In this document: piece after piece, positions 27,140 through 40,398 of the stretch
Numbering within the stretch: position 1 is the first letter of the stretch
How the letters are laid out: every line of letters starts with the position of its first letter
Assembly: GCA_015056365.1 (NCBI GenBank)
Contig: SVGM01000004.1
Location: forward strand, 62,001-126,000
Origin: Clostridiales bacterium
Lineage (GTDB): Bacteria > Bacillota > Clostridia > Christensenellales > Aristaeellaceae
Direction: 5' to 3'
Length of the DNA: 64,000 nt
Made by a program: the position numbers and the translations under genes
Notes under the pieces: model-generated
Told to the model about the DNA's origin: nothing
Databases searched by the model: none
Seen by the model: the letters and a program-made list of their open reading frames with translations, nothing else

Positions 27140-27577
27140 TCATTTGTTCAAAATGCGTTCCTTGAGCATGAGGATCGCCTTCTCATAGCCCTGGAAGCCA
27201 AGTCCCTTGATCTGCGCAATACAGGCCATGGCCGGATAGCTCACATGGCGGAAGCTTTCCCGCTGGCTGACGTCGCTGAGGTGAACCTCCACCGCAGGCA
27301 GAGCCACGGCCTTGAGCGCGTCCAGAATGGCGACGCTGGTATGGGTGTAGGCAGCAGGGTTGATCACAATGCCGTCGGCATTGCCATAAGCGCTCTGAAT
27401 GATATCCACCAAGGCGCCCTCGTGATTGGACTGGTGGATTTCCACTTCGATCTCCTCACGCTGGCACACCTGTCGCACATAGTTTTCCAAATCTGTGTAG
27501 GTCTGAGCGCCATAGATGTCCGGTTCACGGACGCCCAACATGTTCAGATTGGGGCCGTTAAGCACGAAGAGCTTCAT
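27140..27577 (-). CDS. aroQ: 3-dehydroquinate dehydratase, type II
   Basis: 145-residue enzyme that converts 3-dehydroquinate to 3-dehydroshikimate. The sequence carries the type II hallmarks: LFVLNGPNLNMLGVREPDIYG with the catalytic tyrosine, HQSNHEG, GIVINPAAYTHTSVA, and EVHLSDVSQRE. The ATG at 27577 has GGGAGG six bases upstream and overlaps the aroE-aroK end by 20 bases. It is the last gene of the aromatic operon. Confidence 0.96.
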   Translation of the reverse strand: MKLFVLNGPNLNMLGVREPDIYGAQTYTDLENYVRQVCQREEIEVEIHQSNHEGALVDIIQSAYGNADGIVINPAAYTHTSVAILDALKAVALPAVEVHLSDVSQRESFRHVSYPAMACIAQIKGLGFQGYEKAILMLKERILNK

Positions 27578-28796
27578 CAAATCCCTCCCAAATGGCTTGC
27601 GCGCATTCCAGGCGCGTGGTTTCGTTGGCAAAAACGGCATCTGCGCACCGTTCATAGAGTGGCGCTCGTTCCTCATGAAGCCTGTGTACGGCATCCAGGC
27701 CGCCTGCGGAAAGAGGCCGTCCCCGGGTCGCCAGCAGCTCCAGCGGCCGGGTGATATGCGCCACATAGCCATTCATGCGAAGCACCGCACGGTTTTCCGC
27801 ATCCTTGACAGCACCTCCGCCGGTGATAAGGATGCGGCCGCCCTTGAGAGCCTCACGCTGCACAATCGCCTTTTCCCGCGCGCGGAAACCGGCCTCCCCT
27901 TCTTTTTCGAAAATCTCAGGGATACTCATCCCCGCTTCGGCGGCGATCAAGGCATCCGTGTCCACTGCTTCTCTGCCGCTGATGGCTGCCAGTTCCCGGC
28001 CAATGGTACTTTTACCGCAGCCGGGCATGCCGATGAGCACCAGGTTCATCGCCTGCGCACGGAGCTGTTTTTCTGCCGCCTGGGCCCGCTCGGGTACCAC
28101 AGGTTTTCCGGTGAATAGCTCCACGGCCCGCACCGCCTGATACACCAGCATTTTCAGTCCGCCCACGCAGGGAATACCAAGCTTGCCGGCCTCCTCCAGT
28201 AAAGCGGTTCGCAGCGGATTATAGATCACGTCCAGCACGCCTTGCAGGTTGGGAAGCTGCGACAGATCCACAGGTGAGGCGTGTACATTGGGATACATGC
28301 CCACAGGCGTGGTATTGACCAGATAGGCGGCATCCCTGTGCATGGGCAGGTCAGCGTAGGTGTTTTCTCCGCTGCGAGAAATGACCACAGGCCTCCCTCC
28401 CTGCCGGCGAATGACAGCGCAGGCAGTCAGCGACGTTCCACCGCTTCCCAGCACCAGCGTCTTTTTTCCGGCGAAGTCCACGCCAATGCTCTGCGCCATG
28501 CAGGAGAAGCCGTGCGCGTCTGTATTGTCACCGTACAGGCTGCCGTCCGGGCGCTTTACAATGGTGTTGACGCTGCCGATCCAGCGAGCGGTCTCTCCCA
28601 TGTCCGCCAGATAAGGAATCACCGTTTGCTTGTAGGGAATGGTTACGTTGATTCCGCGAAAGTCCTTCTCCCGCATAAACGTATCCACGGCATCCGGCGG
28701 CATGGGACAAAGGTGATACTCGTACTCTGCCAGAAGTCCATGGAGAATCTTGGAATAGCTATGGCCCAGTTTTTCGCCGATCAGACCGTATTCCAT
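27558..28796 (-). CDS. aroEK: Bifunctional shikimate dehydrogenase-shikimate kinase (AroE-AroK fusion)
   Basis: 412-residue fusion. Residues 1-240 are shikimate dehydrogenase: NVTIPYK with catalytic Lys56, GDNTDAHG with Asp93, and the NADP-binding VLGSGGTSLTA. From about residue 250 a shikimate kinase begins, NLVLIGMPGCGKST (Walker A), then VDTDALI and ITGGGAV, with a lid region RGRPL. The two activities are consecutive-but-one pathway steps linked by a short helical segment (VPERAQAAEKQLRAQ). GAGGTG upstream overlaps the pheA stop; the end overlaps aroQ. Confidence 0.95.
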   Translation of the reverse strand: MEYGLIGEKLGHSYSKILHGLLAEYEYHLCPMPPDAVDTFMREKDFRGINVTIPYKQTVIPYLADMGETARWIGSVNTIVKRPDGSLYGDNTDAHGFSCMAQSIGVDFAGKKTLVLGSGGTSLTACAVIRRQGGRPVVISRSGENTYADLPMHRDAAYLVNTTPVGMYPNVHASPVDLSQLPNLQGVLDVIYNPLRTALLEEAGKLGIPCVGGLKMLVYQAVRAVELFTGKPVVPERAQAAEKQLRAQAMNLVLIGMPGCGKSTIGRELAAISGREAVDTDALIAAEAGMSIPEIFEKEGEAGFRAREKAIVQREALKGGRILITGGGAVKDAENRAVLRMNGYVAHITRPLELLATRGRPLSAGGLDAVHRLHEERAPLYERCADAVFANETTRLECAQAIWEGFDEALRA

Positions 28797-28805
28797 GGTC
28801 GCACC

Positions 28806-29945
28806 TCAAATCTCGCTGTAGCTGCCCAGATAGGTGAATACTTCGGGGCCTGCATCCAGTTCGCTAAGCAGTTGCAGAGCGGCCTCGTCGTAGACGGAAG
28901 CATCCAGATCGAAATAGAACATGAACTCGAAATCCGTACCGGCGATGGGACGGCTTTCCAGCTTGGTCAGGTTCAGACCCAGAGCGGAGAACTTGGCGAT
29001 CATGCTGTACAGCGCGCCGGGCTTGTGCTGCACGTTCAGCATCAGACTCATCTTGTTGGCGCCGGGGTAGATCTCCAGATTCTTGGCCACGCAGATGAAG
29101 CGGGTGAAATTACTGTCGCTGTTGGACACATCGGTCTTGACCACAGCGAGGCCATACAGGGCGGCGCAGGCAGGAGAAGAGATGGCAGCGATATCGGTAC
29201 GGTCGCTGCCTGCCACCATCTGCGCGGCAGCGGCGGTGTTTTCACACACGGTGATCTTGACATTGGGCAGGGTCTTGAGGAACTCGCTGCACTGACCGAT
29301 GCCCTGCTCGTGGCTGATAACCTCGTGGATATCGCTGAGCTTCACGCCGGGCTTGGCCAGCAGGCGATGATCGATCTTCAGACGCACGCTGCGTACAATG
29401 GAGAAGCGATACTTGCGCATCAGGTCGTAAACCTCGGTGACGGAGCCATAGGAGCTGTTTTCGATGGGCAAAATGCCATACTGGCACAGGCCGGAATCCA
29501 CCGCCTGCAACACGCCCTCAAAGCGCTTGAAATACATAATGCTGGGCAGAGCGAACAGCTTGTCGCAGGCCTGCTGGCTATAAGCGCCTTCCACGCCCTG
29601 GCAGGCCACCACTGCCTGCTTAGGGAATACCTTGGGGGTATTCTCGACAGCTTGCGCGATATGATTGCTCAGCTCGGTACGGCTGGTGAGATAGCGCTGC
29701 TGATAGCTGCGGCTGATATCGAAAATGGTATTGTACAGCAGCTTGACATACATAGCCATGCTCTCATCCACGCAAGCAGTCTGGCGATTGATAACCTCCC
29801 GCTCCCGGGCGGGATCCAGCACGGGCAAATTGTTTTCTTTTTTATACTTTGCAATCTCCAGCGCCACCTTCATACGCTCGTCAAAATCCTTTACCAGGCG
29901 GCTGTCGATATCATTGATTTGCTGACGAAGTTCCTCCATGCTCAT
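28806..29945 (-). CDS. pheA: Chorismate mutase/prephenate dehydratase (P-protein)
   Basis: 379-residue bifunctional enzyme of phenylalanine synthesis. Residues 1-90 form an AroQ-type chorismate mutase (ELRQQINDIDSRLVKDFDER). From about 110 the prephenate dehydratase follows, with ACQGVEGAYSQQAC, and IENSSYGSVTEVYDLM as the substrate motif. An ACT domain (about 300-379, HKPGALYSMIAKFSALGLN) should give feedback inhibition by phenylalanine; the ESRP-type motif appears as LESRPI. AAAAGGAG precedes the ATG. Confidence 0.95.
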   Translation of the reverse strand: MSMEELRQQINDIDSRLVKDFDERMKVALEIAKYKKENNLPVLDPAREREVINRQTACVDESMAMYVKLLYNTIFDISRSYQQRYLTSRTELSNHIAQAVENTPKVFPKQAVVACQGVEGAYSQQACDKLFALPSIMYFKRFEGVLQAVDSGLCQYGILPIENSSYGSVTEVYDLMRKYRFSIVRSVRLKIDHRLLAKPGVKLSDIHEVISHEQGIGQCSEFLKTLPNVKITVCENTAAAAQMVAGSDRTDIAAISSPACAALYGLAVVKTDVSNSDSNFTRFICVAKNLEIYPGANKMSLMLNVQHKPGALYSMIAKFSALGLNLTKLESRPIAGTDFEFMFYFDLDASVYDEAALQLLSELDAGPEVFTYLGSYSEI

Positions 29946-29989: not shown

Positions 29990-31051
29990 TTAAACTTGAA
30001 TTGAAAGGGAAACCAGCGTTTCCAGCTGGGAAACATCCACAGGATGCAGCTTGCAAAGGCCGATCTTCACTGGCAGTACCAGGGTGAGGGTACCGCCGGT
30101 ACGCTTTTTGTCGGACAGGGCAGCGTCGGTGAGCTGCACGGCTGTATAGGTCGTTTTCGTTGGCAGGCCGTTGCGCTCCAGGGTTGCGATCAGTCGGGAG
30201 ACCACCTGAAGCTCGCACAAACCCAGCTGTGCGGCCAATCGGGCTGCCAGCACCATACCGATGGCCACAGCATGACCGTGGGTCACCTGGTAATCGCTGT
30301 TCTTCTCAATGGCGTGGCCCAGTGTATGCCCCAGGTTGAGCAACTGACGGCTGCCGGTGTCCCGTTCGTCCGCCTCCACCAGAGCTGCCTTAGCCTGTAC
30401 ACAGCGCTGGATCAGTTCTTCAGTATGCTCCGTCCAGTCGCCGTTTTCGAACCACTCGAACACTTCGTTTTCGCCCAGCACGCCGTATTTGATGCTTTCG
30501 CTGACACCGTCTGCAAGGGTTTCGGGGGGCAGGGTCGCCAGCACATCCGGGTCGCACAGTACCAAGCGGGGCTGATAAAATGCGCCCAACTGATTTTTGC
30601 CGGAGGCCAGGTTCACGCCAGTCTTGCCGCCTACGCTGCTGTCCACCATGGCCAGCAAAGTGGTGGGCACCTGAATGAACTTGACGCCCCGCAGGTAGCA
30701 GGCAGCCGCAAAACCAGCCATATCGCCGGGGATGCCGCCGCCCAATGCTACGATACAATCCGAACGGGTCAAATGCTGCTTCGCCATAAATTCCAGCATA
30801 CCCTGCCAATCAGCAAGCGTTTTGTGTTCCTCGCCGGGAGCAATGGCATAACGGCAGGTGGTGAAGCCGCTTTGATTCAGCGACTTTTCGACCCGCGCAC
30901 CGTAGAGGGCGTCTACCGTTTCATCGGTGAGGATGGCAGCCATGCAAGGCTTGCCCAGCACCGTCAGCAGTGCTTCACCAACCCGATCGATCATGCCTCG
31001 CTCTATGCGCACCTGGTAGGGCGTCCCTGTGTTTACATCAACAGTTTTCAC
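29990..31051 (-). CDS. aroB: 3-dehydroquinate synthase
   Basis: 353-residue NAD- and metal-dependent enzyme that makes 3-dehydroquinate from DAHP. It shows the NAD-binding loop VALGGGIPGDMAGFAA, then PTTLLAMVDSSVGGKTGVN, the metal-ligand glutamate region, NLGHTLGHAIE and HGHAVAIGM. Translation starts at a GTG (31051) whose bases overlap the tyrA TGA (GTGA); AGGGGG lies upstream. Second step of the common pathway. Confidence 0.96.
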   Translation of the reverse strand: MKTVDVNTGTPYQVRIERGMIDRVGEALLTVLGKPCMAAILTDETVDALYGARVEKSLNQSGFTTCRYAIAPGEEHKTLADWQGMLEFMAKQHLTRSDCIVALGGGIPGDMAGFAAACYLRGVKFIQVPTTLLAMVDSSVGGKTGVNLASGKNQLGAFYQPRLVLCDPDVLATLPPETLADGVSESIKYGVLGENEVFEWFENGDWTEHTEELIQRCVQAKAALVEADERDTGSRQLLNLGHTLGHAIEKNSDYQVTHGHAVAIGMVLAARLAAQLGLCELQVVSRLIATLERNGLPTKTTYTAVQLTDAALSDKKRTGGTLTLVLPVKIGLCKLHPVDVSQLETLVSLSIQV

Positions 31052-31899
31052 GGTTCATCCCCCTTGCGGTCGGCGATTTCCTTGCGTTCCCGGCCTTCTT
31101 TGAGCAAGGCGCGCATGGCTTCGTTGTCGCCGCTGGCCAGTGCATCCCTGTACTGGCACAGATGGTCGATCAGCTGACTCAGTTCAGCCAGCAACGGTTC
31201 CCGATTGAACTGGAACAGTTCCGTCCACATGTTCTCGTCCAGACGAGCCACGCGGGTCATATCCCGGAAACTGCCTGCGGAGAAGCCGTGGTGTTCCATG
31301 GCAAAGGGGCTGCGGATATATGCGCTGGAGGTCACATGCGCCAGCTGGGAGGTATAGGCGATCACCTTGTCATGGTTTTCCGGCGTAGTGATGACCACAC
31401 GGGCAAAACCAAGTTCCCGCCAGAAGTGCTTGAGATACTCCAGCGTCTGGATGCCGGTGCCCCGGGGCGGGGTCAGGATCATGGAGGCATTCTGGAACAG
31501 ACCTGCGCTAGCATGGTCAAAGCCAGAATACTCCATACCGGCCATGGGATGTCCACCCACAAACAGGAAGCCGTTTTCCTGTGCCACCTGCCACAGCGGC
31601 TCACACACCGCCTTTTTGACACCGCACACGTCCATCACGATGGCGCCTTTTTTGATCTGCGTAGCGTGGTTGGTCACATAGTCCACAGCCGCCTGAGGCC
31701 AGGTGGCAACGATGACTATATCGCAGATGCTGAGCCGTTCGTCCGTCAGATCGGCGTCGATGGCATCCAGCAGGCGTGCCTTGTACATGGTCTGCTCGTT
31801 GGTATCGTAGCCCAGCACGGTATGCTGCGGTGCGTATTTCTTCAGCGTTTTGGCGATGGAACCGCCGATCAGGCCAAGACCGATGACCGCGATATTCAT
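31048..31899 (-). CDS. tyrA: Prephenate dehydrogenase
   Basis: 283-residue NAD-dependent enzyme of tyrosine synthesis. The Rossmann start is IAVIGLGLIGGSIAKTL, followed by MDVCGVK, and GGHPMAGMEYSGFDHA carrying the conserved catalytic histidine. There is no C-terminal ACT domain, unlike some Bacillus homologues, so direct tyrosine feedback may be weak; control could rest on the operon attenuator. Three bases separate it from aroF. Confidence 0.95.
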   Translation of the reverse strand: MNIAVIGLGLIGGSIAKTLKKYAPQHTVLGYDTNEQTMYKARLLDAIDADLTDERLSICDIVIVATWPQAAVDYVTNHATQIKKGAIVMDVCGVKKAVCEPLWQVAQENGFLFVGGHPMAGMEYSGFDHASAGLFQNASMILTPPRGTGIQTLEYLKHFWRELGFARVVITTPENHDKVIAYTSQLAHVTSSAYIRSPFAMEHHGFSAGSFRDMTRVARLDENMWTELFQFNREPLLAELSQLIDHLCQYRDALASGDNEAMRALLKEGRERKEIADRKGDEP

Positions 31900-31902
31900 A
31901 CA

Positions 31903-32922
31903 TCAGACCCCCTTGGGCATCTTGTAGGCGTGAGGCAGGATAGCGTTCACCGACTGCATCACATCGGCAAAAGCGGCGGGCGTCAGGCTCTGAGCACCGT
32001 CGCAGAGAGCATGCTTGGGGTCGTTGTGCACTTCGATCATCAGGCCATCCGCGCCCACTGCGGCAGCGGCCAGCGCCATGGGCTTAACCATCCAGGAAAT
32101 GCCGGTGGCGTGGCTGGGGTCGATGACCACAGGCAAATGGCTCAGTTTTTTCAGCATGGGCACAGCGGACAGATCCAACGTATTTCGGGTAGAGGTTTCG
32201 AAGGTGCGGATGCCGCGTTCGCACAGGATGACGTTGTCATTGCCGCCGGCCATGATGTACTCGGCGCTCATGAGTAGCTCCTGCAGGGTATTGGCCAATC
32301 CGCGCTTGAGCAGGATGGGCTTGCCGGTGTGGCCCAGTTCCTTGAGCAATTCAAAATTCTGCATGTTGCGGGCGCCCACCTGGATCACGTCCACCTCGTC
32401 AAAAAGGCTGAGCTGGCTCAGATCCATGATTTCAGTGACCACAGGCAGGCCAGTGAGCTTCTTGGCCTTCAGCAACAGGGTCAGACCCTCGCCCCGCAAA
32501 CCCTGAAAGGCGTAAGGAGAGGTGCGGGGCTTGAATGCGCCGCCGCGGAGCATGGTGGCACCGGCAGCCTTGACCGCCTGCGCCACGCCGCAGATCTGCT
32601 CCTCGCTCTCAATGGAACAGGGACCGGCGATAACGCTGAAAACATCGCCGCCAACACTGGTATCTCCTACGCTGATAACGGTATCTTCCTCATGGAACTT
32701 ACGGTTGGCATTCTTGTAGGGTTCCTGTACGCGCTTCACATCCTCAACGATGTCCAACGCGCGCAGCAGATCGATGTCCAAATGGGAGGTATCGCCCACC
32801 AGACCCAGAATGGTATGGGAAGCGCCAGCAGAAGAATGAATGGTGATATTCTGGCTCTCCAGCCAGGCCATCAGGTTACCGAGCTGTTTTTCTTCGGGGT
32901 TCTTCTTCAGGACGACGATCAT
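31903..32922 (-). CDS. aroF: 3-deoxy-7-phosphoheptulonate (DAHP) synthase, type I-beta
   Basis: 339-residue enzyme for the first committed step of aromatic synthesis. A ferredoxin-like N-terminal domain (about 1-75) precedes the TIM barrel, with VIAGPCSIES, LRGGAFKPRTSPYAFQG, LLKRG and VIDPSHATG. The N-terminal domain is the type found in enzymes feedback-inhibited by aromatic amino acids. AAAAGGAGG lies in front of the ATG. It is the first structural gene after the leader peptide and terminator. Confidence 0.95.
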   Translation of the reverse strand: MIVVLKKNPEEKQLGNLMAWLESQNITIHSSAGASHTILGLVGDTSHLDIDLLRALDIVEDVKRVQEPYKNANRKFHEEDTVISVGDTSVGGDVFSVIAGPCSIESEEQICGVAQAVKAAGATMLRGGAFKPRTSPYAFQGLRGEGLTLLLKAKKLTGLPVVTEIMDLSQLSLFDEVDVIQVGARNMQNFELLKELGHTGKPILLKRGLANTLQELLMSAEYIMAGGNDNVILCERGIRTFETSTRNTLDLSAVPMLKKLSHLPVVIDPSHATGISWMVKPMALAAAAVGADGLMIEVHNDPKHALCDGAQSLTPAAFADVMQSVNAILPHAYKMPKGV

Positions 32923-33008: not shown

Positions 33009-33043
33009 TGAAAAAACCCCTGCGGCATTGAGCCGCGGGGGTT
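33009..33043 (-). terminator. Attenuator terminator in the aro operon leader
   Basis: Minus strand AACCCCCGCGGC (33032-33043), five-base loop, GCCGCAGGGGTT (33015-33026), then TTTTC. It is a strong intrinsic terminator placed 20 bases after the leader peptide stop and 87 bases before aroF, so transcription must be able to read through it. A downstream TGCGGCA near 32985-32995 is complementary to TGCCGCA in its 3' arm and could form a competing fold. Confidence 0.88.
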
Positions 33044-33063
33044 TGCTTTACAAGCATTCCATC

Positions 33064-33156
33064 TCAGGCAGCACAACGCAAAAGAGCCTTACGTGCAAAC
33101 GTAAAGCTAAAGGTAAAATAGTAGAAGGAAGGAACGAGCACACGAGCGAGCATCAT
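33064..33156 (-). CDS. Phe/Tyr-rich leader peptide of the aromatic amino acid operon
   Basis: A 30-residue open reading frame with an excellent ribosome site (AAGAAGGAGG, ten bases ahead of ATG ATG). Residues 11-20 read FYYFTFSFTF, so seven of ten codons are Phe or Tyr, the two end products specific to the genes downstream. It starts about 27 bases after the predicted transcription start and ends 20 bases before an intrinsic terminator. This is the architecture of ribosome-stalling attenuators. The peptide itself probably has no function. Confidence 0.88.
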   Translation of the reverse strand: MMLARVLVPSFYYFTFSFTFARKALLRCAA

Positions 33157-33189
33157 GGAACCTTACCTCCTTCTTGCGTTGATGATGGC

Positions 33190-33219
33190 ATGATAGCACC
33201 GTTTGCGTGGATTTGTCAA
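33190..33219 (-). promoter_or_regulatory. Promoter of the aromatic amino acid operon
   Basis: Minus strand TTGACA (33214-33219), 18-base spacer, TATCAT (33190-33195). The TGA stop codon of the upstream glycerate kinase lies inside the -35 box. Confidence 0.87.
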
Positions 33220-34547
33220 TGCAGATCATGGTTTTTGGTTTGTTTTTCTAATGTTTGCCCATATCGGCGTTCAGGGTGACCAGGTGAAACCAATGTGACA
33301 CAGACATCGTTTACATTGGTTCCGGTGGGGCCGGTCATCAGAAGGTTGTCGCCGCTCTGCAGGGCGTGGTATGCATCGTGATTCCGGAGGGCTTTCGCGG
33401 CTGTTGTACCGGATGATGCGATTTTGCTGATGGTTTTTCCGTCCACCCAGCCCCCTGCTGCATCGGTGGGGCCGTCGGTACCGTCGGTGCCCAATGAAAA
33501 AAAGCATACGCCATCCAAACCTTGCAGTTTTTCAGCCGCAGCCAGAGCCATCTCCTGATTTCTGCCGCCCAAGCCGTGCGTTTTACCCAGCCTCACGACG
33601 GTCTCACCGCCAGCAACAATGGCCAGCTGCCGGCCTTCCCGATAAGCTTTCCGGGCCAGCGCGCTAAAGAAACGACCCGCTTCGTTTGCCTGACAGGTCA
33701 GCGGTGGTAAGAATACACGGACTGGATAACCGATTTTCGCACAGGCTTTGGCGGCCGCAGTACGCGCAAATGTCATGCCGCCGATGATCCGAACAGAAGC
33801 GTTCGGCAGGGTTTTGGGCGTTTCCTGCCAAAGAAGCTGCTCGGCTTTCCCTGACAGCCGCAGGTTGTACGTTTTGACAATATGCACTGCTTCATCGCAG
33901 GTGGTAGGATCCGGACAGGCAGGGCCGGATGCGATCTGGTCGGGCGCATTGCTGAGCACATCGCTCAGGGCGATGGTAATCACCTGCGCCGGAGCACACA
34001 GCTTAGCAAAGCGTCCCCCTTTGACGGCGGACAGCCGCTTGCGAACGGTATTGATCTGACCAATCTCCGCGCCGCAGGAAAGCAGCTGGCCGTTGATATC
34101 CGCTATTTCTGCTGCTGACAGAAGGGGCTTCTCAAACAGTGCCGAACCGCCGCCGGACAAAAGCAGGATCACGCGGTCGTTGGCAGAGAGGTTTTGCACC
34201 ATGGCAATGGCTTCTTCTGTGGCTGCATAGCTATTTGCGTCAGGAACGGGATGGCCTGCCTCCCGAACGGTCAGCTTCGTGCACAAGCCTTCCGGCAATT
34301 GAGCCAACGCATGTTCTTCCACATGGCCGTATTTGGTGATGATCATGGCCTTTTCAGCGATGAAACCGGGCGTCTGCAAAGCAGAGATCGCCATGGCACA
34401 GGCAGCCTTCCCGACCGCCAGCACCAGCGTTCGGCCGTTTTCAGCGCAAGGCGGCAGCGCAGAGATGGCCTTGCGGACATGCTGATCCGGTCTGGCTGCT
34501 TCCAAGATCGCCTGAATCACCCTGTCAATCTCCTGTCGCTGATCCAT
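33216..34547 (-). CDS. Glycerate 2-kinase (MOFRL/DUF4147 family)
   Basis: 443-residue kinase of the GckA/TtuD type that phosphorylates glycerate. It has a DUF4147 N-terminal part (LVLAVGKAACAMA, REAGHPVPDANS, LLLSGGGSALFEKP) and the C-terminal MOFRL motif region GLGGRNQEMALA, then SLGTDGTDGPTDAAGGWVD. The ATG at 34547 has GGAGG nine bases ahead. It lies after rsmI with a 59-base gap. Its stop codon is embedded in the aro promoter. Confidence 0.9.
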   Translation of the reverse strand: MDQRQEIDRVIQAILEAARPDQHVRKAISALPPCAENGRTLVLAVGKAACAMAISALQTPGFIAEKAMIITKYGHVEEHALAQLPEGLCTKLTVREAGHPVPDANSYAATEEAIAMVQNLSANDRVILLLSGGGSALFEKPLLSAAEIADINGQLLSCGAEIGQINTVRKRLSAVKGGRFAKLCAPAQVITIALSDVLSNAPDQIASGPACPDPTTCDEAVHIVKTYNLRLSGKAEQLLWQETPKTLPNASVRIIGGMTFARTAAAKACAKIGYPVRVFLPPLTCQANEAGRFFSALARKAYREGRQLAIVAGGETVVRLGKTHGLGGRNQEMALAAAEKLQGLDGVCFFSLGTDGTDGPTDAAGGWVDGKTISKIASSGTTAAKALRNHDAYHALQSGDNLLMTGPTGTNVNDVCVTLVSPGHPERRYGQTLEKQTKNHDLH

Positions 34548-34606
34548 CACCGCTCGCCTCCTTTGTAGCAAAACAGCGGACGTACCCATCCGTCCGCTGC
34601 CTTTGT

Positions 34607-40116: not shown

Positions 40117-40362
40117 TTCATTCTCAAAAAGCAAACGGAGCAGCCAACGCCCTCAAAAGGACGGAGCTGCTCCGTGGTACCACCTTTTTTCGCAGCACAA
40201 GCGTGCTGCCTCTCCGCGCTGTAACGTGCGCACACGGCCGGGCTAGTGAATGGTTCACCCGGACTCCCTCCCAAGCGACCTTCCGCCATTCGCGGTTGCC
40301 AAAGCATCTTTCAGCCGGTGGATGCTTCTCTCTGGGGCGGCGAATGAGTACTCCTCTTGTTC
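40117..40362 (-). ncRNA. T-box riboswitch controlling valS
   Basis: The minus strand carries the T-box sequence AGGTGGTACCACGG (40172-40185), stem I elements (GAGGAGTACTC with the AGTA loop-E motif, AGAGAGAAG, and ATTCGC/GCGAAT pairing), and a terminator ACGGAGCAGC/GCTGCTCCGT (40135-40175) followed by TTTGCTTTTT. Uncharged tRNA would stabilise the antiterminator and allow valS expression. A GTC valine codon at 40279-40277 is a candidate specifier, but I did not fold the RNA to confirm. Confidence 0.92.
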
Positions 40363-40368
40363 ACGGGG

Positions 40369-40398
40369 ATGATATGCACAAGGCTGCTTGACATTCAA
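40369..40398 (-). promoter_or_regulatory. Promoter of the T-box/valS transcript
   Basis: Minus strand TTGAAT (40393-40398), 18-base spacer, TATCAT (40369-40374). It has the same spacing and -10 as the aro promoter. Confidence 0.65.

Follow-up and report, generated by a model that had tools for sequence, protein, structure and literature searches.

A Phe/Tyr-rich leader ORF and a covarying antiterminator point to ribosome-mediated attenuation of an aroF operon in Clostridia

The enterobacterial pheA and trp leaders are ribosome-mediated attenuators. Aromatic operons of the Bacillota are mostly discussed in terms of T-boxes and repressors, and Panina reportedly studied aromatic regulation in low-GC Gram-positive bacteria in 2003. 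Leader-peptide attenuators are nevertheless in print for this phylum. Those reported include histidine leaders in the B. cereus group and other bacilli, in Peptostreptococcaceae and Lutispora, and in Erysipelotrichales (PMC9413887, PMC2965389), and a leader-peptide attenuator of the Staphylococcus aureus ilv-leu operon that has genetic support (PMC5794164). Also described is the uORFC-13-1 motif of Acholeplasma, in which a uORF with at least one Phe codon lies just before a terminator and aroF; attenuation was proposed for this motif, which has 24 examples from Acholeplasma and environmental sequences (PMC8632094). The original prediction for the locus described here had set it against the usual control of Bacillota aromatic operons, and because these his, ilv-leu and Acholeplasma aroF attenuators are published, the contrast is softer than was claimed. 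Among the titles and abstract openings listed, from a library with few subscription papers, we found no earlier account of a Phe/Tyr leader before aroF in these Clostridia. What is new is the mixed Phe and Tyr leader on an aroF operon, together with its spread across an order of Clostridia.

The window is the whole 64,000-nucleotide stretch of DNA analysed, and all the features that follow lie on its minus strand. The promoter, ribosome site, 30-codon ORF with seven Phe/Tyr codons and terminator before aroF that had been claimed can all be located in the sequence. The promoter is of the sigma-70 type (33190..33219), with a -35 box TTGACA (33219-33214), an 18-nt spacer and a -10 box TATCAT (33195-33190), giving 11/12 matches; similar boxes are seen in part of the aligned relatives. 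Within the 5'-UTR the sequence CAACGCA (33175..33181) is the complement of 33080-33074, and in the MFE fold it forms the tentative anti-antiterminator P1. It is followed by the Shine-Dalgarno (SD) sequence AAGGAGG (33166..33172) and the leader ORF (33064..33156), which runs from ATG at 33156 to TGA at 33066-33064 and encodes MMLARVLVPSFYYFTFSFTFARKALLRCAA. The control codons 11-20 (33097..33126) read TTC TAC TAT TTT ACC TTT AGC TTT ACG TTT, placing seven aromatic residues (F11, Y12, Y13, F14, F16, F18 and F20) within ten positions. Five are Phe and two Tyr, and Trp is absent from the whole leader. The last aromatic codons are spanned by the hairpin H1 (33085..33108), formed by AGCTTTACG and CGTAAGGCT and defined by the alignment count. 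The end of the ORF supplies the antiterminator strand, region 2 (GCGTTGTGCTG, 33069..33079); its partner, region 3 (CGGCTCAATGC, 33025..33035), is the upper 5' arm and loop of the intrinsic terminator. The latter (AAACCCCCGCGGCTCAATGCCGCAGGGGTTT, 33011..33044) is a GC-rich hairpin beginning at 33044, followed by a U tract that ends at 33011.

The aromatic leader ORF exceeds chance. No SD-preceded ORF with at least seven F/Y in 10 aa arose in 2000 dinucleotide shuffles of the 350-nt upstream region. A scan of 464 kb of the 2.6-Mb genome (the window plus 20 further stretches) yielded 2554 SD-preceded starts opening ORFs of 8-45 aa, nested starts being counted separately, and among these only the aroF leader combined at least five F/Y/W in 10 aa with a downstream terminator. 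The fold of the leader transcript is more stable than those of 200/200 shuffles (z = -4.69).

Directly 5' of the leader lies a MOFRL/DUF4147-family gene on the same strand (33216-34589), and the -35 box overlaps its stop codon. This gene ends at 33216, just before the leader, so that the hairpin could in principle be nothing more than its terminator, with the ORF a product of chance. We regard this as the least probable of the explanations considered, and hardly credible, since a promoter and a ribosome site intervene between the gene and the hairpin, and the ORF with its terminator turns up again ahead of DAHP synthase both within the family and in 17 others.

Could the leader RNA bind a ligand, a protein or a tRNA, in the manner of a T-box, riboswitch or TRAP-like element, and so drive the terminator with the ORF incidental? 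Aromatic operons of the Bacillota are often assigned to T-boxes, and a search of the genome gave 11 T-box matches at E <=0.001, five of them above the curated cut-off. At the aroF leader itself the T-box covariance model (RF00230) gave no match, and no Rfam family reached its cut-off either there or in the 20 relatives searched. Thus none of the Rfam amino-acid leader families is found at the curated cut-off at this leader: His_leader scored 20.7 bits on the leader strand and 25 on the other (cut-off 49), Leu_leader scored 16 bits (cut-off 50), and a Phe leader family was absent from the matches at the locus up to E 10. The SD-preceded aromatic ORF lies far above shuffles, and its codons appear to track the content of the operon. 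A binding RNA is therefore a highly improbable explanation. Elsewhere in the window a T-box leader lies upstream of valS, identified by Pfam (40154-40373, minus strand; 95.3 bits against a cut-off of 93). One T-box match in the same genome, below the curated cut-off, precedes pheS, and genes next to further matches include serS, cysS and methionyl-, isoleucyl- and prolyl-type tRNA synthetase genes, the isoleucyl and prolyl types having been identified by reading.

Pfam agrees with the claimed gene order aroF-tyrA-aroB-pheA-aroEK-aroQ, again on the minus strand. The DAHP synthase gene aroF (31903..32922; PF00793 and PF18152) starts with ATG at 32922 and is followed by tyrA, encoding prephenate dehydrogenase (31048..31899; PF02153, PF20463), aroB, encoding 3-dehydroquinate synthase (29990..31051; Pfam), and pheA, encoding chorismate mutase-prephenate dehydratase (28806..29945; PF01817, PF00800). 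Then come an aroE-aroK fusion of shikimate dehydrogenase and shikimate kinase (27558..28796; PF08501, PF18317, PF01202) and aroQ, encoding a type II dehydroquinase (27140..27574; PF01220), whose start was deduced from the domain match. All six genes are thus present as predicted, but the operon is not the full aromatic set that had been proposed, because aroA and aroC sit outside it. The sole match in the genome to chorismate synthase (aroC) is on another contig (C5:13057-14106), immediately preceded by an EPSP-synthase-family match (C5:11732-13000). That family, which we take to include MurA as well, has three further matches in the genome, on other contigs and none of them inside the aroF operon. 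We followed twelve DAHP synthase loci further downstream. Two belong to the genus of the window and share the tight aroB-pheA junction; of the ten from other genera, nine have a gap of 2.3-2.5 kb at this junction and one lacks a match to aroB. In the two loci searched (L315 and L316) the gaps contain EPSP synthase and chorismate synthase. There is no match to PF00425, the chorismate-binding domain of TrpE/PabB, in the source genome (88% complete), which suggests that this organism may not make Trp from chorismate. The lack of Trp codons in the leader fits with this.

How general is the leader? Sixteen of the 17 genomes in the genus of the window carry a DAHP synthase of the aroF kind. The leader is seen at 14 of these loci; at another (L015) the contig breaks off, and the last (L014) shows the aromatic run without a usual in-frame start codon. 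L014 keeps the run and a terminator-like hairpin, and no in-frame ATG, GTG or TTG opens the run; it may use a non-standard start codon, be misassembled or be a leader in decay. When the 17 genus genomes were searched with a covariance model of the leader end, 14 strong hits resulted, all of them aroF leaders, which carries no weight because those sequences had gone into the model; a second strong target was not found in these 17 genomes. One of the weaker hits (E 1.8e-4 to 0.1), in G010, is the L014 leader; G015, a genome with no DAHP synthase match, also gave hits, none of them an aroF leader.

At the level of the family, 200 genomes were searched, of which 136 had a DAHP synthase match among the matches listed. 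The sample of 136 loci comprises 36 taken straight from the searches and 100 picked from the listed places; these 100, and 40 picked likewise for the order, were spread over genera and families and are a non-random sample from the matches listed. Among the 122 upstream regions placed in the first round, 108 contain an ORF with at least four F/Y/W in 10 aa, an SD sequence being optional. The strict rule (at least five F/Y/W in 10 aa plus an SD sequence) selects 94/121, L015 being left out since its contig ends within the gene, compared with 12/1210 shuffles and 0/121 reverse strands. Fourteen loci placed later, mostly a second DAHP synthase paralogue, stand outside this count; nine have at least four F/Y/W in 10 aa (one lacking an SD sequence) and three pass the strict rule, bringing the family total to 97/135. 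By the strict terminator rule, in a count that omits one segment under 40 nt, 103/107 leaders have a terminator after them, compared with 5/535 shuffles; a looser rule accepts 106/108 leaders, yet also 33% of shuffles.

The leader extends into other families of the order. Of 64 loci, 8 were dropped for ambiguous orientation, and the strict leader rule selects 35 of the 56 placed upstream regions, drawn from 17 of the 24 families. All 35 also have a terminator by a looser rule, with which 11% of shuffles comply. Among loci from named genomes, the best 80 of a longer list, 52 pass the strict leader rule, 49 of them with a terminator. The holders include Oscillibacter valericigenes (L216), Angelakisella massiliensis (L226) and Bittarella massiliensis (L259), the first two of which are Oscillospiraceae in the NCBI taxonomy; the order of the window is probably the same group as these Oscillospiraceae. 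The leader was not found upstream of aroF in, for example, Faecalibacterium sp. An122 (L291) or Desulfosporosinus (L278, L281). Homologous leaders lacking Phe/Tyr codons would have spoken against attenuation, and the aromatic codons are in fact kept in most, though not all, of the upstream regions.

The RNA pairings were counted in an alignment of 17 close leaders; as these sequences are related, the shuffle counts derived from it are not probabilities. The antiterminator, in which the end of the ORF pairs with the upper terminator arm and loop, is paired in 97.1% of cells, and double changes occur in two of its pairs (three cells). None of 500 shuffles reached its covariation score, and versions slid out of register pair at 27-58%. 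The terminator helix is paired in 95.6% of cells, with six pairs showing double changes, and H1 in 97.4%, with four. Counts of further pair types were no higher than in shuffles for the antiterminator, terminator and H1 (95, 95 and 252 of 500, respectively). H1 was judged in the genus by this alignment count, an automated hairpin finder having placed its arms inconsistently. It is conserved, and in the window it has no bases in common with the antiterminator strand. Antiterminator and terminator do have bases in common, and region 2 is predicted to be masked once a ribosome stands at the stop codon. Thus an alternative antiterminator pairing, the absence of which had been named as a ground for abandoning the original prediction, does exist: it excludes the terminator, and it is conserved with compensatory changes.

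Beyond the close relatives the pairing was tested with the letters of the terminator loop, which are free of the constraint of the terminator stem. In 104 family loci their mean pairing with the leader end was 0.66, falling to 0.35 when the leader end was shuffled, and 87 of the 104 lay above their own shuffle mean. The 17 that did not include the Tyr-rich L034-L036, L039, L043, L046 and L068. The leaders of this Tyr-rich group are of the YAKYYYVLYR kind, and the group may possibly use another switch geometry. In a test of the duplex energy of the whole arm, 50 of 106 loci had no more than 5 of 100 shuffles reaching the observed value; this test is weak because GC-rich arms pair with much, and the loop-only test is cleaner. 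L037 and L054, where the choice of ORF is doubtful, were excluded from the loop, P1, switch-model and H1-finder tests, and L074 and L075, in which no terminator was found, from the terminator count onward; all four were excluded from the codon counts.

These pairings also bear on the possibility that free amino acids make the leader peptide stall its own ribosome, so that the pause would not be a wait for charged tRNA. TnaC is an example of such nascent-chain sensing. The peptide end KALLRCA is well conserved within the genus of the window, as this would require, but that end is encoded by region 2, whose conservation is explained by the RNA pairing. Other clades have a different peptide end, or an ORF that closes before it, whereas the aromatic run stays, as in most cases does the RNA pairing, and the run itself varies in order and length. 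The 3' arm of H1 lies wholly or partly beyond the leader stop in some relatives and yet is retained, so that what is conserved is the RNA and not the peptide. We consider nascent-chain sensing very unlikely, if the least improbable of the alternatives to charged-tRNA sensing.

P1, the pairing of the 5'-UTR with region 2, was considered as a general anti-antiterminator and rejected, being no better than shuffles family-wide (n = 104, median rank 0.465, 14 loci at no more than 10/200). Of these 14, L055 is spurious: the string for its start codon could not be located. In the genus, 6 of 14 leaders lie at no more than 10/200 shuffles. The window is not one of them; P1 is present in its MFE fold, but 72 of 200 shuffled UTRs reach its duplex energy. 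For the 1:2 hairpin that in trp/phe-type attenuators competes with the antiterminator in the absence of a ribosome, H1 and P1 are thus tentative candidates.

Conserved aromatic leaders combined with a covarying antiterminator argue for the class of mechanism originally put forward, ribosome stalling, and we conclude that the leader very probably attenuates transcription in the trp/phe manner, through the ribosome. The sequences themselves show the parts, how they are conserved, and that the pairings covary and exclude one another; from this we infer that ribosome and polymerase are coupled, that the level of charged tRNA is sensed, which way the response runs and that starvation for Phe or Tyr induces the operon. 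In the proposed mechanism RNA polymerase would transcribe the leader with a ribosome following. When charged Phe-tRNA and Tyr-tRNA are plentiful the ribosome would reach the stop codon and cover region 2 (33079-33069), allowing the terminator (33044-33011) to form and ending transcription before aroF. When either is scarce, the ribosome would stall on one of codons 11-20 and leave region 2 free, and a stall at the later control codons would also open H1. Region 2 could then capture the terminator loop and upper 5' arm (33035-33025) while the 3' arm has yet to be transcribed, giving readthrough into aroF-tyrA-aroB-pheA-aroEK-aroQ.

The switch was modelled on a transcript ending at the terminator loop, the readout being the pairing of the terminator 5' arm and loop with upstream RNA; the ribosome was assumed to cover 13 nt past the start of the A site, or 12 nt past the stop. 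For the window, the calculated upstream pairing is 0.70-0.71 with the ribosome at any of the seven aromatic codons, 0.08 with it at the stop codon and 0.54 without a ribosome, so that on this model the nascent leader without a ribosome is not clearly off. The corresponding medians for 104 family loci are 0.73 for the best stall, 0.19 at the stop and 0.42 without a ribosome. Stall and stop differ by at least 0.2 in 97 of the 104, a difference that is partly built in because hardly any upstream RNA is free to pair once the ribosome is at the stop; stall and no ribosome differ to this extent in 61. If the terminator 3' arm is included, the terminator wins at equilibrium in every modelled state, and thus the switch must act during transcription. 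Known attenuators likewise switch during transcription.

The codon content of the leaders appears to follow the content of the operon. The 104 family leaders, taken as whole chosen ORFs, contain 370 Phe, 339 Tyr and 14 Trp codons. Phe is encoded by TTT in 301 cases and TTC in 69, compared with 54 and 80 in eleven genes of the window; this bias may owe as much to the conserved CUUUA of H1 as to decoding. We sorted the 130 loci with enough downstream sequence by the first operon gene matched after aroF. Where this is tyrA, 75 of 91 loci have a strict leader, with 332 Phe and 280 Tyr codons and Trp in 3 of the 75. Where it is aroB, 11 of 14 do, with 70 Phe and 25 Tyr codons and Trp in 4 of the 11. 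The remaining loci have chorismate mutase next (strict leader in 1 of 3) or none or another gene (6 of 22; 21 Phe and 22 Tyr codons, Trp in 2 of the 6). Comparing tyrA and aroB loci, Fisher tests gave p 0.0003 for Phe/Tyr and p 0.004 for Trp. The pattern had been seen before these values were calculated, and they assume independent codons and take no account of kinship (2 of the 11 aroB leaders are identical). It thus appears that the share of Tyr and Trp codons follows operon content. A single genus of the family accounts for six Trp-bearing leaders (L080, L082, L105, L109, L110 and L113); the two operons read from that genus (L315, L316) have no tyrA match. On balance we lean slightly towards a broader reading, in which an old, order-wide attenuator gates entry to the shikimate pathway in Clostridia of the Oscillospiraceae kind, its codon mix evolutionarily tuned to the end-product branches encoded. 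If so, one tiny ORF would be a weighted sensor of several amino acids.

Our analysis indicates that an attenuator of the classical leader-peptide kind recurs over many families of one order of Clostridia, including in a genome that has a T-box match before pheS. It offers many natural variants of one attenuator, differing in region 2, region 3 and codon content, and thereby opens two questions to testing: how two or three amino acids are weighed by a single leader, and how an attenuator outlasts the drift of its own sequence. T-box leaders (RF00230) have in common with it the sensing of tRNA charging via a terminator switch, but bind the tRNA directly and need no ORF. The Bacillota His leaders also work by leader-peptide attenuation, on histidine genes and in few lineages, while the S. 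aureus ilv-leu leader has Leu and Ile codons and precedes a branched-chain operon. On a comparison of descriptions, the Acholeplasma uORFC-13-1 motif is set apart from the leader here, which has a long Phe/Tyr run, occurs in Clostridia and has a covarying antiterminator. Closest in design are the enterobacterial pheA (PheL) and trp leaders, which share an ORF rich in codons for the operon product, competing antiterminator and terminator, and a biosynthetic operon on the 3' side. The aroF leader differs from these in that H1 of the window does not overlap the antiterminator strand, and in that it mixes Phe and Tyr codons and would control the entry to the pathway together with both of its branches.
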